The notes beneath the pieces are model-generated. The model did no database searches, was not told the origin of the DNA, and saw nothing but the letters and a program-made list of their open reading frames with translations. A stretch of DNA of 64,000 bases from Pseudoalteromonas sp. G4. Its GTDB lineage: Bacteria; Pseudomonadota; Gammaproteobacteria; Enterobacterales; Alteromonadaceae. The stretch is taken from NCBI RefSeq assembly GCF_028875915.1, contig NZ_JAPEHW010000001.1, positions 124,001 to 188,000 of the forward strand. Reading direction: 5' to 3'. Shown piece after piece: positions 2,134-46,129 of the stretch. The stretch's first letter is position 1. Each line of letters starts with the position of its first letter. The position numbers were made by a program, and so were the translations under genes.

Positions 2134-5100
2134 TTAAAGGCTCGTTTTAAATTGAGTGTGTGCGAGTGCTTCTTCAGATTCCATTTCACCACGGTGATCT
2201 TTTGCTAACTTTTCATAAAGTAACGGCAAAACAATTAAGGTGAAAAAGGTACCAATTAACATCCCCGCGACTAAGATAATACCAATACTGTTACGGGCTT
2301 CTGCACCAGCACCTGTCACTAATACCAGTGGGAAATGACCTAAAACGGTGGCTCCCGTTGTCATTAGTATTGGGCGTAGTCGCGTTGCTGCAGCGCCTTT
2401 TACTGCGTCTAGCTTAGATTTACCTTCAAGCTGTAAATGATTAGCAAATTCAACAATAAGAATACCGTTTTTAGCAATCAATCCAATTAGGGTAATAAGG
2501 CCAATTTGGCTATAAATATTAACGGTTGTTAGCGATAAAAATGGCAGCATTAATGCGCCTGCAAGAGCAAGGGGCGCACAGCCTAAAAGCACCACAAGTG
2601 GATCGCGGAAACTATTAAATTGAATCGTTAATAAGAAATACACCACTATCATTGAAACAAGTAACACACCAACCATGGTATTACCTTCTTTGCGCAGCTG
2701 ACGTGATTCACCGGCATAATCAATAGAATAATGTTTTGGTAAAACGTCCGCAGCAATTTGCTCAATCGTACTTAAACCTTGCTCTTTTGTGATGTGTGGT
2801 AATACACCAGCTAAAATTCTAAATGAACTTTGTTGGTTAAATGAACCAAGTACACGCGGGCTTGTGAAAGTACGCAGTGTCGCAAAGGAAGATACAGGAA
2901 TAAGTTCACCACTGCCTGTACGTATTTTCATGTCGAGAATGTTTTCAGGATTATAACGTTCGTTTGCGCCAACAATTGGGATAACGCGGTATGCTTTACC
3001 GTCTTTGTTGAAGTAATTTACAAAGTTATTGGACATTAAAATACTGAGCTGATCGTTTACTGACTTTAGGTTAAGCCCTAAATCGGCAATTAACTCACGG
3101 TCAATTTCAAGCTCTGCCTGTGGTAAATCGATTTTTAAATCGGTGTTTACAAACATAAAGCTGCCACTTTCATTGGCTTTAGCAATGATTTGATCAGCGT
3201 ACTCTTTCATTACCTCAGGTTTGTCGTTTGCACGTAATACTACTTCAACATCAAATTGCCCTGCGGTAGGCAGTGACGCAGGTAAAATAGGGAACAAACT
3301 TAAACCGGTGACACTACCAAGCCTTGCGTATAAATCAAACAGCAAATCATGTACGGAGTTTTCGCGTTCTTCGTATGGTGCAAGTTCAACCCCACCGAAA
3401 CCTGCAGCCGCAGTAATAATTTGCCAGGTAAATTTACCGCCTTCCGTTGCATTCATAACCACAGCTGTGTCGTTCATTTTAGTTGCAGTATATTCTTGAG
3501 ATGATTCAGGCGGTGCTTCAACCACGACTTGAATACTGCTTTGGTCTTCAATCGGCGCGAGCTCTTTTTGTGACAATAAATAAAATGGCGCTGATAAAAT
3601 TGAAAACACAATTGCCACAAAGAATACCTGAGGGCGAAGTGCAAATAGCTTATCAAGTGCATTAAAATAGAACGCTTGTAAACGGTCAAAGTAGCCATTC
3701 ACTTTTTGTGTTAATTTACCTTCTTTACCACCTTCTGCATTGACCCATGCACTCATAATTGGCGACAAGGTCACGGCAACAACGCCTGATATTAATACTG
3801 CAATGGCGAGCGTGAAAGCGAATTCGCGAAACAAGAAACCCGTTAGACCAGTAAGAAAACCAATCGGTGCATAAACTGCTGCCAACGTAAGCGTCATCGC
3901 AATTACTGGTACTAATAATTGGCGCGAACTGATAAGTGCTGCTTGCCAACGAGGGCGACCTTCGCGCATATGACGGGCGACGTTTTCTACTACAACAATG
4001 GCGTCATCTACTACTAAACCGACGGAAAGTACTATCGCGAGTATTGTAAGCAGATTAAGTGAAAAGCCCATCATGTAAATTACGGCAATGGCGCCTAATA
4101 TAGAAATTGGAATCGTGATAAGTGGCACCATAGCGGTTCTAAACGAGCCCATCATGGCAAGTACTACAATCCCTACAAGTAAAACGGTTTCGCCGAGCGT
4201 GGTAAAAATCTCTTTAATTGAATCACGCATGTACAAGGTACCATCGTAACCAATTTCAATGTGTAAACCATTCGGTAAAACATCATTTATTTGATCAAGT
4301 TTTTCGTAAAGTGCATCACCAATAACAATTTCATTTGCACCTGGTAATGCCCATACAGCTAAAAACACCGTGTCGTGATCATCTAAACGGGCAGTAACCA
4401 TACCTTCAGCTTCGCCAATTTCAATTTTGGCAACGGTGCCTAAACGAAGTTGGACTCCATCACTTTCCTTGATCACTAAATTTTCAAAATCAGCAATGCT
4501 TTTAAGCGATGTATTGGCCATTAAATCAATGCGCTGACGACTATTTTCACTATAGCCAAGTGTGGCAATAGTGTTATTTGCTTGCAGTGCTTGAAATACA
4601 TCCACGGCACTTATGTTATAAACTGCAAGTTTGTCAGTATCTAACCAAATACGCATTGCTGGGTCGCGGCCACCTTCTAGCGTTACTTTCTGAACGCCTG
4701 GAATATCGCTCATTTGCGGCACAATGTTACGAGTTAAATAATCACTTACTTCACTGCGGGGTAAGTCTTGCGATTGTACGTCCAGGTAAAAAACGGCATA
4801 CGGACTATCAGCACGGACAATTTGAATTGATGGATCTTCCGCGCCAGTGGGTAACTCAAATTTAATTTGATTTAGCTTAGTTGTGAGCTCCGCTAATGCG
4901 TCAGTGGTGTTGTGATTTAATTCTAACCAAGCAGTTACCTTGCTAAGACCAGCTGTGGTGATTGAATCAACGTAATCTACCCCAGGTACTGTTGAAGTTA
5001 CGCGTTCGATAGGCTCTGTAACGTAGCCTTTAACAACATCGGCAGCAGCACCGGTATAAACGGTATTTATCACAAGCGACGCACTTTCTATTTTAGGGTA

Positions 5101-44444: not shown

Positions 44445-44912
44445 ATGAAAAAATGGTTTTTCGCCTTACTGGTAAGTACATTTTTAGTTGGTTGTGACTC
44501 AAATGAAGTGGGTGATGTATCACTTGGTATGTTTACGACTAAAGATATAAAGCTTAATCACTTTAAAGACCCAATTATTACCGGGGTGACATGTCATGTT
44601 GCATCAATTGAAGCAAATTTGAGCCTATCCGACCCAAGTGATAGCTCAATTGCTTGCAGACAAACAGGCCCAATTACCAAAGAGATGATTGCAAAAATAG
44701 ATATGTCTGATTCAGGTGAAGTGATTTTTAAAAAGTCTAAAAGTGTATTATTCAAATCGATGAAAATAAGACGCGTTTTAGATAAAGAAAACCAAACATT
44801 GATGTATCTTGCTTATTCTACAAAAGAAACTTCTGGTAGTTTTAAACACAGTTTATCGACAGTACCACTGTGGAGAACTAAAGCGTATAATTTCCAAAGC
44901 ATAGAAAATTAA
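44445..44912 (+). CDS. CreA-family lipoprotein
   Basis: 155 residues. Signal peptide with lipobox LVGC (MKKWFFALLVSTFLVGC). The mature region is colinear with E. coli CreA: VGDVSLGMFTTKDIKLNHFKDPIITGVTCHV, SIACRQTGPI, VIFKKSKSVLFKSMKIRRVLD and LMYLAYSTK. CreA is a small periplasmic protein of unknown activity in E. coli, encoded with the creBCD system; here it stands 24 bp after a MacAB-like pair, with AAGGAGTTTAAA upstream. This is an unusual neighbourhood and may indicate an accessory role for the exporter. Confidence 0.88.
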   Translation: MKKWFFALLVSTFLVGCDSNEVGDVSLGMFTTKDIKLNHFKDPIITGVTCHVASIEANLSLSDPSDSSIACRQTGPITKEMIAKIDMSDSGEVIFKKSKSVLFKSMKIRRVLDKENQTLMYLAYSTKETSGSFKHSLSTVPLWRTKAYNFQSIEN

Positions 44913-44977
44913 CATTAAATTCGGCTTTGCTATGTTAATTTGTGAATTGTAAACAAAAAACCAAATAGGAGATTTTG

Positions 44978-45013
44978 ATGATTGTTTTAAACCCAACCGG
45001 GTGTAATGCATAA
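44978..45013 (+). CDS. Putative leader peptide ORF (11 residues)
   Basis: AGGAGA at 44967-44972 is followed, at normal spacing, by ATG and 11 codons reading MIVLNPTGCNA, then TAA. It is far too short for the general ORF list but has a better ribosome binding site than many genes in the window. It overlaps the first arm of a set of alternative hairpins ending in a T-run upstream of rsgA. No homologue is known to me; translation has to be shown. Confidence 0.5.
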   Translation: MIVLNPTGCNA

Positions 45014-45058
45014 ATAATTTCACCCGGTAACAATTACCGGGGTTAAAGCCCCTTTTTT
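44997..45058 (+). promoter_or_regulatory. Attenuator-like set of mutually exclusive hairpins upstream of rsgA
   Basis: Four segments can pair in overlapping ways. Segment 1 CCGGGTG (44997-45003, inside the leader ORF) pairs with segment 2 CACCCGG (45021-45027). Segment 2 (CCGGTAA, 45024-45030) can instead pair with segment 3 TTACCGG (45034-45040). Segment 3 (GGGG, 45039-45042) can pair with segment 4 CCCC (45049-45052), followed by six T (45053-45058). This is the 1:2, 2:3, 3:4 logic of translation-coupled transcription attenuators. The 3:4 stem is only 4 G-C pairs; it could simply be the terminator of the upstream creA-like gene. Confidence 0.5.
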
Positions 45059-45077
45059 AAATATTAAAGGGCATAAA

Positions 45078-46129
45078 ATGATAAATATTAGCAAGTTAAA
45101 CCTTATTGGCTGGCAGCCATTCTTTCAACAACAATTAACTATGGAAGAGTGGTCAGACACAACACTAGTACGTGTAATAGAGCAGCATCGCAATCAAATA
45201 GTTGTTGATAATACAGAGCAGCTACTAACGTTGCCAATAACAGTGACAACATCAGAGTATGTTGTGGGTGATTGGCTGTTACTTGATGAAGCGCATAATT
45301 AATTAGGTTACTTGAGCGTAAAAGCTTATTTTCACGAAAATCAGTAGGCTCACAACGTGAAGTACAACACATTGCTGCGAATATAGACGTTGCATTTATT
45401 ATGTGTTCACTTAACGATGATTTTAATTTGAATCGGATTGAGCGCTATTTAGCATTAGTGAATGAGGCTGAGTGTGAAGCGGTTATTATTTTAACGAAAG
45501 CGGATCTAGTTGATGATTGCGTGCAAAAGCAAGCATTAGTACAAGCGTTAGATCCACAACTAAACGTTGAAGTAATCAATTGTTGTGACGATAAAGCGAA
45601 TGAACAACTTGCACCTTGGCTAAAACCGCAAACAAGTATTGTATTGCTTGGTTCATCAGGTGTTGGTAAATCAACTTTAAGCAACACGCTTTTAGGTGGA
45701 AGTGTGCAAACTACAGGTGCAATCCGTGAGCAAGAAAGTAAAGGGCGGCACACAACTACCAGTCGTCATTTACTTATGCTTGAAAGTGGAGCGGTCATTA
45801 TTGATACTCCGGGCATGTGTGAATTGCAGTTAGCCGATGTAACTTACGGCATTGAGGCGACGTTTAAAGATATTGAAACGTTATCAAATAACTGTAAATT
45901 TGCTGATTGTTGTCATACAACTGAACCTGCTTGTGCAGTGAGGATGGCAATTGAATTGGGTGAATTATCTGAGCGTCGGTTTTTGAACTTTCAAAAGTTA
46001 CGTAAAGAAAACCAGTTTAACACGGCCTCTTTACAAGAGCGGCGGGCACTTGATAAATCGATGAGTAAATATTACAAACGTACTCAGAGCCAAGCGGTTA
46101 AATTAAAACGATTAGATAAGATGAATTAG
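45078..46129 (+). pseudogene. rsgA: RsgA-type ribosome-assembly GTPase, frameshifted
   Basis: The first frame gives an OB-fold-like N-terminus from ATG 45078, ending VGDWLLLDEAHN at TAA 45300. The second frame, shifted as by loss of one base near 45297, runs on from LIRLLERKSLFSRKSVGSQREV to a stop at 46127-46129. The C-terminal part has the circularly permuted GTPase order of RsgA/YjeQ: TKADLVDD (G4) first, then LLGSSGVGKSTL (G1), IIDTPGM (G3), then a zinc knuckle (CKFADCCHTTEPAC). RsgA acts in late 30S subunit maturation. One-base loss in an AATTAATTAG tract may be a true mutation or a sequencing slip. AAAGGG precedes the start. Confidence 0.85.

Follow-up and report, generated by a model that had tools for sequence, protein, structure and literature searches.

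A leader open reading frame (ORF) combined with a five-segment RNA switch on the Shine-Dalgarno (SD) sequence of the downstream gene is very probably a conserved feature in front of a second gene of the RsgA GTPase family, called RsgA2 below. We put at about 0.5 the probability that this is a leader-peptide-controlled translational switch, which turns the gene on when ribosomes are unable to move off the start codon of the leader. The element was found in a stretch of 64,000 nucleotides, referred to as the window, and coordinates given without a locus name are those of its forward strand. A first, sequence-only reading of the window had drawn attention to the element. That this observation is real and that the leader is widely conserved has been confirmed by sequence comparison, and the interpretation attached to it is, taken as a whole, partly supported.

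The leader and the gene that follows it

The leader ORF of the window (44978-45013), which runs from an ATG at 44978 to a TAA ending at 45013 and encodes MIVLNPTGCNA, is preceded by an SD sequence of its own, AGGAGA (44967-44972). Segment 1, ACCGGGTG (44996-45003), corresponds to nucleotides 19-26 of this ORF and pairs with segment 2, CACCCGGTAA (45021-45030), which can pair instead with segment 3, TTACCGGGG (45034-45042). Segment 3 can likewise pair with segment 2 or with segment 4, GCCCC (45048-45052), and segment 4 has the SD region of the GTPase gene as its other possible partner. Six T (45053-45058) directly abut stem 3:4 as a terminator-like U-run. The ORF, its SD sequence, segments 1-4 and the six T were all found by sequence inspection where the sequence-only reading had placed them. 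The four segments and their pairings stood, but a fifth segment had been missed, AAAGGGC (45066-45072), which is the SD region of the GTPase gene and can pair with segment 4 and the T that follow it. The stem 3:4, described earlier as having 4 bp, is present with five pairs, one of which is T.G. The 103-nt leader stretch folds with a z of -2.83, a value as good being obtained in one of 200 dinucleotide shuffles. Among the families of Rfam 15 the best match to the window was Termite-leu, with 21.2 bits against a gathering score of 51, so that no family was found at its gathering score, and the leaders of the 20 loci tried gave no match. An inverted repeat of eight bases, ATTAACAT/ATGTTAAT (44908-44939), overlaps an extended -10-like site just 5' of the leader; none was seen by eye in the same-genus locus L003.

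The downstream gene (45078-46129, forward strand) was recognised by its family profile and its homologues, and "RsgA2" is a name coined in this analysis for the second RsgA paralog. It is split between a first frame, 45078-45302, and a second, open one that ends at 46129, and the change of frame near 45,300 (interruption within 45290-45410) may be either a true lesion, making this a pseudogene, or a sequencing error. A same-genus genome carries an intact homologue of 347 aa, and in G002 (L003), of this genus, the homologue has an uninterrupted frame. A search with TIGR00157 detected two RsgA-family genes in the genome, RsgA2 with 153.6 bits and another with 286.1 bits, the latter on a different contig in an open frame of 364 aa. 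This higher-scoring gene is taken to be the housekeeping copy, and the window GTPase is therefore regarded as a paralog. RsgA2 passes the curated TIGR00157 cut-off of 100 bits both in the genome search (153.6) and with its 3' piece (140), while the 242-aa window piece scores 139.9 bits with the RsgA equivalog PRK12288, whose cut-off of 360 a mere piece of the protein is hardly able to reach. RsgA2 thus belongs to the same family as RsgA/YjeQ, and its intact relatives contain GSSGVGKS and KGRHTTT, but it differs from that protein in being a second copy beside the higher-scoring RsgA of the same genome. The earlier assignment of an rsgA-type target was therefore right as to the family, whereas the gene is an extra paralog, with the higher-scoring RsgA elsewhere in the genome.

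Conservation and covariation

A DNA search with the region among 60 relatives matched five genomes, the source genome included. In three of the others (L003, L004 and L006) an MIV ORF and alternating hairpins lie 5' of an intact RsgA2, the leader peptides being MIVVNPTGCNA, MIVLNPLAGQVSA and MIVVKTHPVKAEK, respectively; the fourth, L005, gave a match of 37 nt only. The RsgA2 proteins of L003, L004 and L006 were then used in a protein scan of genome contigs, and the best 80 of 265 relatives became the named loci, so that distant RsgA2 genes are under-sampled. One of them (L086) has no upstream sequence, which left 79. The pattern ATGAT[TCA]GT was present within 450 nt upstream of RsgA2 in 51 of these 79 loci, compared with 6, 1 and 2 of 78 in three 510-nt control stretches of the same loci, and the start pattern itself is therefore enriched. 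With other starts included, a leader was found in 58 of the 79 named loci; together with the window, L003, L004 and L006 this amounts to 62 of 83 RsgA2 loci, the named ones being the best 80 of 265, and 21 loci are without a leader. The claim of an attenuator-type leader belonging to the downstream RsgA-type gene, and the conservation of its ORF in relatives, which had been proposed as a check, are both borne out by these counts.

The leader ORFs are 11-21 codons long and form a family that starts with MIV[L/V..] and continues as THPAK, NWAR, NPTG or other types. Since a leader was accepted when M[IFS][VA] occurred with an SD-like motif, the frequencies of Ile2, Val3 and the SD are partly built in; with this proviso, the 62 starts are MIV (55), MIA (4), MFV (2) and MSV (1), one of six SD motifs is present in 60 of them, and the spacing is 5-7 nt in 58. 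Leaders before RsgA2 occur in 11 bacterial families, namely Vibrionaceae, Shewanellaceae, Ferrimonadaceae, Echinimonadaceae, Alteromonadaceae, Colwelliaceae, Pseudoalteromonadaceae, Psychromonadaceae, Chromatiaceae, Oceanospirillaceae and Sedimenticolaceae. On a quick tree, in which the row of the second RsgA (L007) is incomplete, presence of the leader requires 5 changes over 82 rows, against a mean of 18.7 after shuffling. A short ORF with its own SD is conserved before one gene family. Among the leaderless loci, a Vibrio clade (L026, L032, L034, L037, L041, L050 and L057) shows an operon-like arrangement in which the RsgA2 start lies directly at the stop codon of the upstream gene. The leaderless L045, L054 and L079 have in common a long-spaced promoter-like motif, TTGACC(T/C)GTCTA..CTT.ATAGTTTA..GTG, about 100-160 nt upstream of position 3001; it is reminiscent of MerR-type promoters and perhaps represents another induction route. 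In L077 a purine riboswitch lies on the opposite strand (2484-2583), about 220 nt from the leader.

Searches that were not tied to the gene led to the same place. Run over 394 genomes of the order, a covariance model R1 of 48 leaders, the window and G054 among them, matched at 47 places in 43 genomes; 35 of these matches lie on the same strand before RsgA2 within about 480 nt, one before a TipAS gene and 11 before neither. Among the 30 strongest, 29 precede RsgA2 (including the window and G054, both part of the model) and one, L107, precedes another gene, while the 17 weaker matches comprise 6 before RsgA2 and 11 elsewhere; several of the latter 11 are only 26-38 nt long, and one is close to a contig end. 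Within the genus, 22 of 108 genomes matched at 25 places, and of the 19 inspected among the 24 places other than the window, 17 are before RsgA2 and two weak ones are not. Because R1 contains the window, a second model, R2, was built from 45 relatives, leaving out the window and the same-genus L003 and L004. In the 64-kb window it found a single place at E ≤ 1, 44964-45057, with E = 2.8e-9. The other RsgA of the genome (L007) and the 21 leaderless loci gave no model match at E ≤ 1; of the 31 sources in this search L018 alone matched, and weakly. A strict DNA pattern, AGGAGATNTTGATGATTGTN{1,2}TNAA, gave only two matches over the 394 genomes and was too strict; a THPAK-type pattern gave none in viral contigs.

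The pairing tests were carried out on 60 loci, L018 and L028 having been dropped as they contain MIV ORFs in which segments 2/3 are not recognisable; segment 2 was placed by a hand-typed motif in nine loci, and some gene starts were set by hand. In these loci five segments pair as 1:2, 2:3, 3:4 and 4:5, segment 1 lying inside the leader ORF and segment 5 being the SD region of RsgA2. Cognate 1:2 duplexes have a mean energy of -19.6 kcal/mol, compared with -15.1 kcal/mol for non-cognate ones, a value reached by none of 20000 permutations, and in 53 of the 60 loci the duplex is within the best 5% of its own shuffles. The cognate energies of 3:4 and 4:5 were each reached by none of 10000 permutations, whereas that of a control pairing (spacer:SD) was reached by 7100 of 10000; the shared ancestry of the loci stays in the statistics of all these permutation tests. 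The stretches of segment 4 that pair with segments 3 and 5 overlap in 40 of 60 loci only. Covariation was scored in 46 non-redundant loci for 78 leader-window pairs, among which 1:2 (z -8.3), 3:4 (z -7.2) and 4:5 (z -5.7) ranked highest, the next reaching -3.3. The 2:3 pairing is nearly invariant (z -2.0) and is therefore poorly tested by covariation. In alignment A2, standard pairs make up 87.4% of the 1:2 helix, as against 28-50% when the strands are slid, and double changes fill 15 cells, as against 5.7 in shuffles, with none of 500 as high; two of the five measures are ordinary, the double-change pair count and the pair-type count being reached by 38 and 70 of 500 shuffles. Pairings that exclude one another are thus kept by compensatory change for 1:2, 3:4 and 4:5, and the computed pairing of segment 4 with the SD would hide the downstream SD in one of the alternatives. 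The covariation proposed earlier as a check was seen for 1:2 and 3:4, and for 4:5 in addition, while 2:3 varies too little.

Three further pairings were rejected, as no covariation was detected for segment 1 with segment 3 (z +1.5, 46 loci), segment 2 with the gene SD (z +1.5, 46 loci) or the leader SD with the pyrimidine-rich tract before segment 2 (z +1.1). This tract is found 5' of segment 2 in many THPAK-type loci, is absent from the window, L003 and L004, and might be a site for Rho or S1.

Conservation and covariation, along with the E of 2.8e-9 obtained with the independent model R2, speak against a chance resemblance, or a mere terminator of the creA-like gene, either of which is hardly credible even though promoter-like sites, taken singly, are no commoner in the window than in shuffles (8 observed, 7.5 expected). 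The creA-like gene terminator had been the alternative offered by the sequence-only reading; across many genera, however, it is RsgA2 that the leader precedes, and segment 4 follows the SD of the GTPase gene.

The codons within segment 1 are fixed. His7 is CAC and Pro8 is CCG in 41 of 41 cases each, and entire segment 1 codon types (THPAK, NWAR, NPTG) are exchanged with the pairing to segment 2 kept, from which it follows that RNA pairing is what keeps segment 1 constant. At codons 2, 3 and 4 the usual residues are Ile, Val and Leu/Val/Ile. The MIV start, which the rule for selecting leaders itself favours, appears from these sequences more likely to be held as peptide or as codons. The fixed His7 and Pro8 codons, which RNA pairing alone accounts for, would also fit a structured 5' UTR under some other control (the GTPase itself, temperature or an RNA-binding protein) in which the ORF is incidental. 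This is improbable, given that ATGAT[TCA]GT stands far above the control stretches and that the start persists where the codons of segment 1 switch type, with Val3 encoded by four synonymous codons. Two loci depart from the common layout. In the same-genus L163 an insertion of about 160-170 bp, relative to L161, separates segment 4 from the SD and provides a natural test of the switch. L081 has three segments, with the SD as segment 3 (judged by eye), and masking of segment 1 raises the SD-opening cost from 4.0 to 8.3-9.7; by folding it seems to reach the same odd parity as the five-segment leaders.

Translation or termination

The mechanism shared by these leaders looks translational, because a U-run abutting stem 3:4 is rare. 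The window, L003 and L004, all of the window's genus, are the 3 of 60 loci with at least five U in the first six nucleotides after the stem, a frequency close to that at random places (2.8%), and no conserved intrinsic terminator, in the sense of a stem with an abutting U-run, emerged from the 60 loci. Under a looser rule, five U in eight nucleotides starting 0-2 nt past the stem, 27 of 60 loci qualified, as against 17% of random places, and 33 failed; about nine of the 27 form a closely related Rheinheimera/Alishewanella/Nitrincola group in which the five U lie a few bases further on. U-rich tails within 10 nt of the stem mostly do not abut it. In same-genus relatives the T stretch reads TTGTTTT (L160), TTATTTT (L156) or TTTCTC (L161), and the U-run is broken in this way, whereas the match between segment 4 and the SD is preserved (CCCCTT/AAGGGG, by eye). 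We therefore read the conserved mechanism, on sequence grounds, as hiding of the SD, with a termination step possibly added as a partial role in some lineages. The terminator that had been placed at stem 3:4 does not hold as the general mechanism, in view of the 3 of 60 loci and of the complementarity of segment 4 to the gene SD.

Transcription attenuation in the lineage of the window, and perhaps in part elsewhere, would have stem 3:4 and a U-rich tail terminate and 2:3 act as antiterminator. The five-pair stem of the window followed by TTTTTT, the abutting U-run in L003 and L004 and the excess under the looser rule are all consistent with it. It is nonetheless unlikely, as the abutting U-run occurs at about the frequency noted for random places, is lost in same-genus relatives that keep the complementarity of segment 4 to the SD, and is accompanied by covariation between segment 4 and that SD.

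Polarity, flip point and possible signal

With the SD hidden by segment 4 as the preferred mechanism, folding predicts two states. Segment 1, when free, would form 1:2 together with 3:4 and leave the SD more open, with RsgA2 ON; segment 1, when covered, would allow 2:3 and 4:5 to form, leaving the SD more hidden and RsgA2 OFF. Over the 60 loci, the cost of opening the SD is 6.14 kcal/mol with 1:2 forced and 7.35 kcal/mol with segment 1 masked and 2:3 formed. Masking of segment 1 makes this cost higher in 44 of 60 loci and lower in 4, and leaves it within 0.5 kcal/mol in 12. An initial equilibrium calculation gave a weak result of the same sign: for a P site at codons 4, 6 and 9, the cost rose in 25, 31 and 36 of 62 loci and fell in 7, 5 and 6. 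The mean predicted exposure of the SD changes little over the loci, from 0.30 in the ON state to 0.24-0.25 in the OFF state. According to these models, a covered segment 1 probably corresponds to an OFF gene. The sequence-only reading had expected the reverse, early stalling that frees 2:3 and permits read-through; with five segments in place, covering of segment 1 is predicted to close the gene.

With the SD as the fifth segment, the predicted polarity is the reverse of that of the erm and cat leaders. Those leaders resemble the present one in having a short leader ORF, alternating stems and a target SD hidden in one state. Their SD is in an even segment (2 in cat, 4 in ermC), so that stalling opens the gene, whereas the SD here is segment 5 (3 in L081, by eye), which is the opposite parity. 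A ribosome stalled over segment 1, which frees the SD in the erm/cat type, is predicted to do the opposite here (cost up in 44, down in 4 of 60 loci). We know of no arrest motif MIV.

Folding with a ribosome footprint placed the predicted flip at codons 2-4. The mean probability of 1:2 falls from 0.84 with the P site at codon 1 to 0.70, 0.56, 0.34 and 0.17 at codons 2 to 5, and 2:3 is dominant in 2, 9, 29, 46 and 52 of 60 loci, respectively. For the window, the predicted probability of an unpaired SD drops from 0.36 (ribosome on codon 1) through 0.23 (codon 2) to 0.06 (codon 3 and later). When no ribosome is present, 46 of 60 loci prefer 1:2, and 7 already prefer 2:3. The first paired nucleotide of segment 1 lies between +18 and +26 of the leader (mode +19; +18 or later in 60/60), and in E. 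coli the footprint of ribosomes that tetracycline traps on start codons extends to +16 to +18 (PMC12121999). A ribosome halted on the first codons would therefore leave segment 1 mostly free. Leader ribosomes that move past codon 3-4 would keep segment 1 covered or unfolded and the gene low, and ribosomes that do not load, or are held on the first codons, would leave it free and allow the GTPase to be made. The MIV codons would be the place where the predicted switch flips. Candidate causes of such a hold are an initiation-blocking drug, a shortage of working 30S subunits, or hungry Ile/Val codons. RsgA2 might then act, as a guess, on stuck or drug-bound 30S subunits.

The same five-segment SD switch could also work with the default state ON, a ribosome stalled at codon 4 or later covering segment 1 and turning the gene OFF, for example in response to a drug that targets the nascent MIV[L] peptide or to lack of Leu. 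The preference for 1:2 in 46 of 60 loci when the ribosome is absent, the shift to 2:3 in 46 of 60 with the P site at codon 4, and the Ile, Val, Leu/Val/Ile bias of codons 2-4 all accord with such an arrest, which we consider possible at rather low odds; past codon 4 the codons track pairing and not peptide, and a switch that a drug turns OFF makes little sense for a TipAS gene bearing the leader. For toiL, the uORF of E. coli topAI, the authors of PMC12121999 suppose that the passage of elongating ribosomes disrupts the hairpin for a short time only. If the same brief disturbance holds for the RsgA2 leader, its unstalled state would already be ON.

The TipAS gene just mentioned is in L107 (1015-1700, reverse strand), where an RsgA2-type leader, its SD pairing judged by eye, precedes a standalone protein of 127 aa with a TipAS antibiotic-recognition domain (E 5.1e-14). 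None of four other standalone TipAS genes has the leader, and the case is therefore taken as one recruitment. A second hint is the nucleotide before the start codon, G(-1), present in 43 of 62 leaders and 3 of 62 GTPase starts; as a rough background, it precedes 36 of the 159 ORFs with an SD in the named loci and 1 of 14 in the window. G(-1) is given in PMC8794815 as the start context most inhibited by kasugamycin. RsgA itself helps the 30S decoding centre to fold (PMC4436671). From the TipAS, G(-1) and RsgA 30S hints, a block of initiation appears the likeliest inducer of the switch; that it should be kasugamycin-like in particular is doubtful. In its fullest form, which we hold only tentatively, the proposal is that the leader senses the step from initiation to elongation and governs an accessory, inducible RsgA whose task would be to clear or protect 30S subunits caught by start-codon-trapping drugs, kasugamycin-like or other, with the TipAS gene recruited once.

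Two described systems come close to this proposal. According to PMC12121999, toiL senses start-codon stalling by tetracycline and retapamulin, and the uORF controls exposure of the SD there as here. The difference is that toiL pairs directly with the topAI SD, so that a stall anywhere inside it would likely open the gene, whereas ribosomes at the start codon and at codon 4 of the RsgA2 leader are predicted to have opposite effects. The hflXr/rli80 system of Listeria (PMC6310831) resembles ours in that a leader ORF of 14 aa, together with alternative RNA structures, lies before an additional GTPase gene, a second one of the HflX type; it uses a transcription terminator and an RLR motif, in contrast to the SD hiding, MIV start and RsgA-type GTPase of the RsgA2 leader. 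No rsgA leader was found in the open full-text literature searched or in Rfam 15. The main text of the uORF4u paper contains no rsgA, GTPase or Vibrio, and in a review with both RsgA and "leader peptide" (PMC6912228) the latter appears in the reference list only. The RsgA2 leader thus seems, as judged from sequence, to be a conserved leader-peptide switch without a description found in that literature or in Rfam 15.

If the predicted logic is true, the leader would report whether ribosomes can leave the start codon, which sets it apart from the erm and cat leaders with their arrest peptides. The accessory RsgA of many marine bacteria would then take its place in a response to drugs or to translation stress, just as HflX does through hflXr. 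The function of the RsgA paralog would become directly testable, and the leader would be usable as a reporter of initiation inhibitors. E. coli RsgA is reported in PMC10475562 to inhibit T4 via ribosome inactivation, and a phage link is possible for the RsgA2 leader system. RsgA2-like genes were matched on 153 plasmid records, 69 of them from Rhizobium. Plasmid-borne RsgA2 adjoins a GNAT acetyltransferase and an HTH gene in Vibrio alginolyticus (L143, 4143-7593) and Shewanella aestuarii (L144, 4161-7047).
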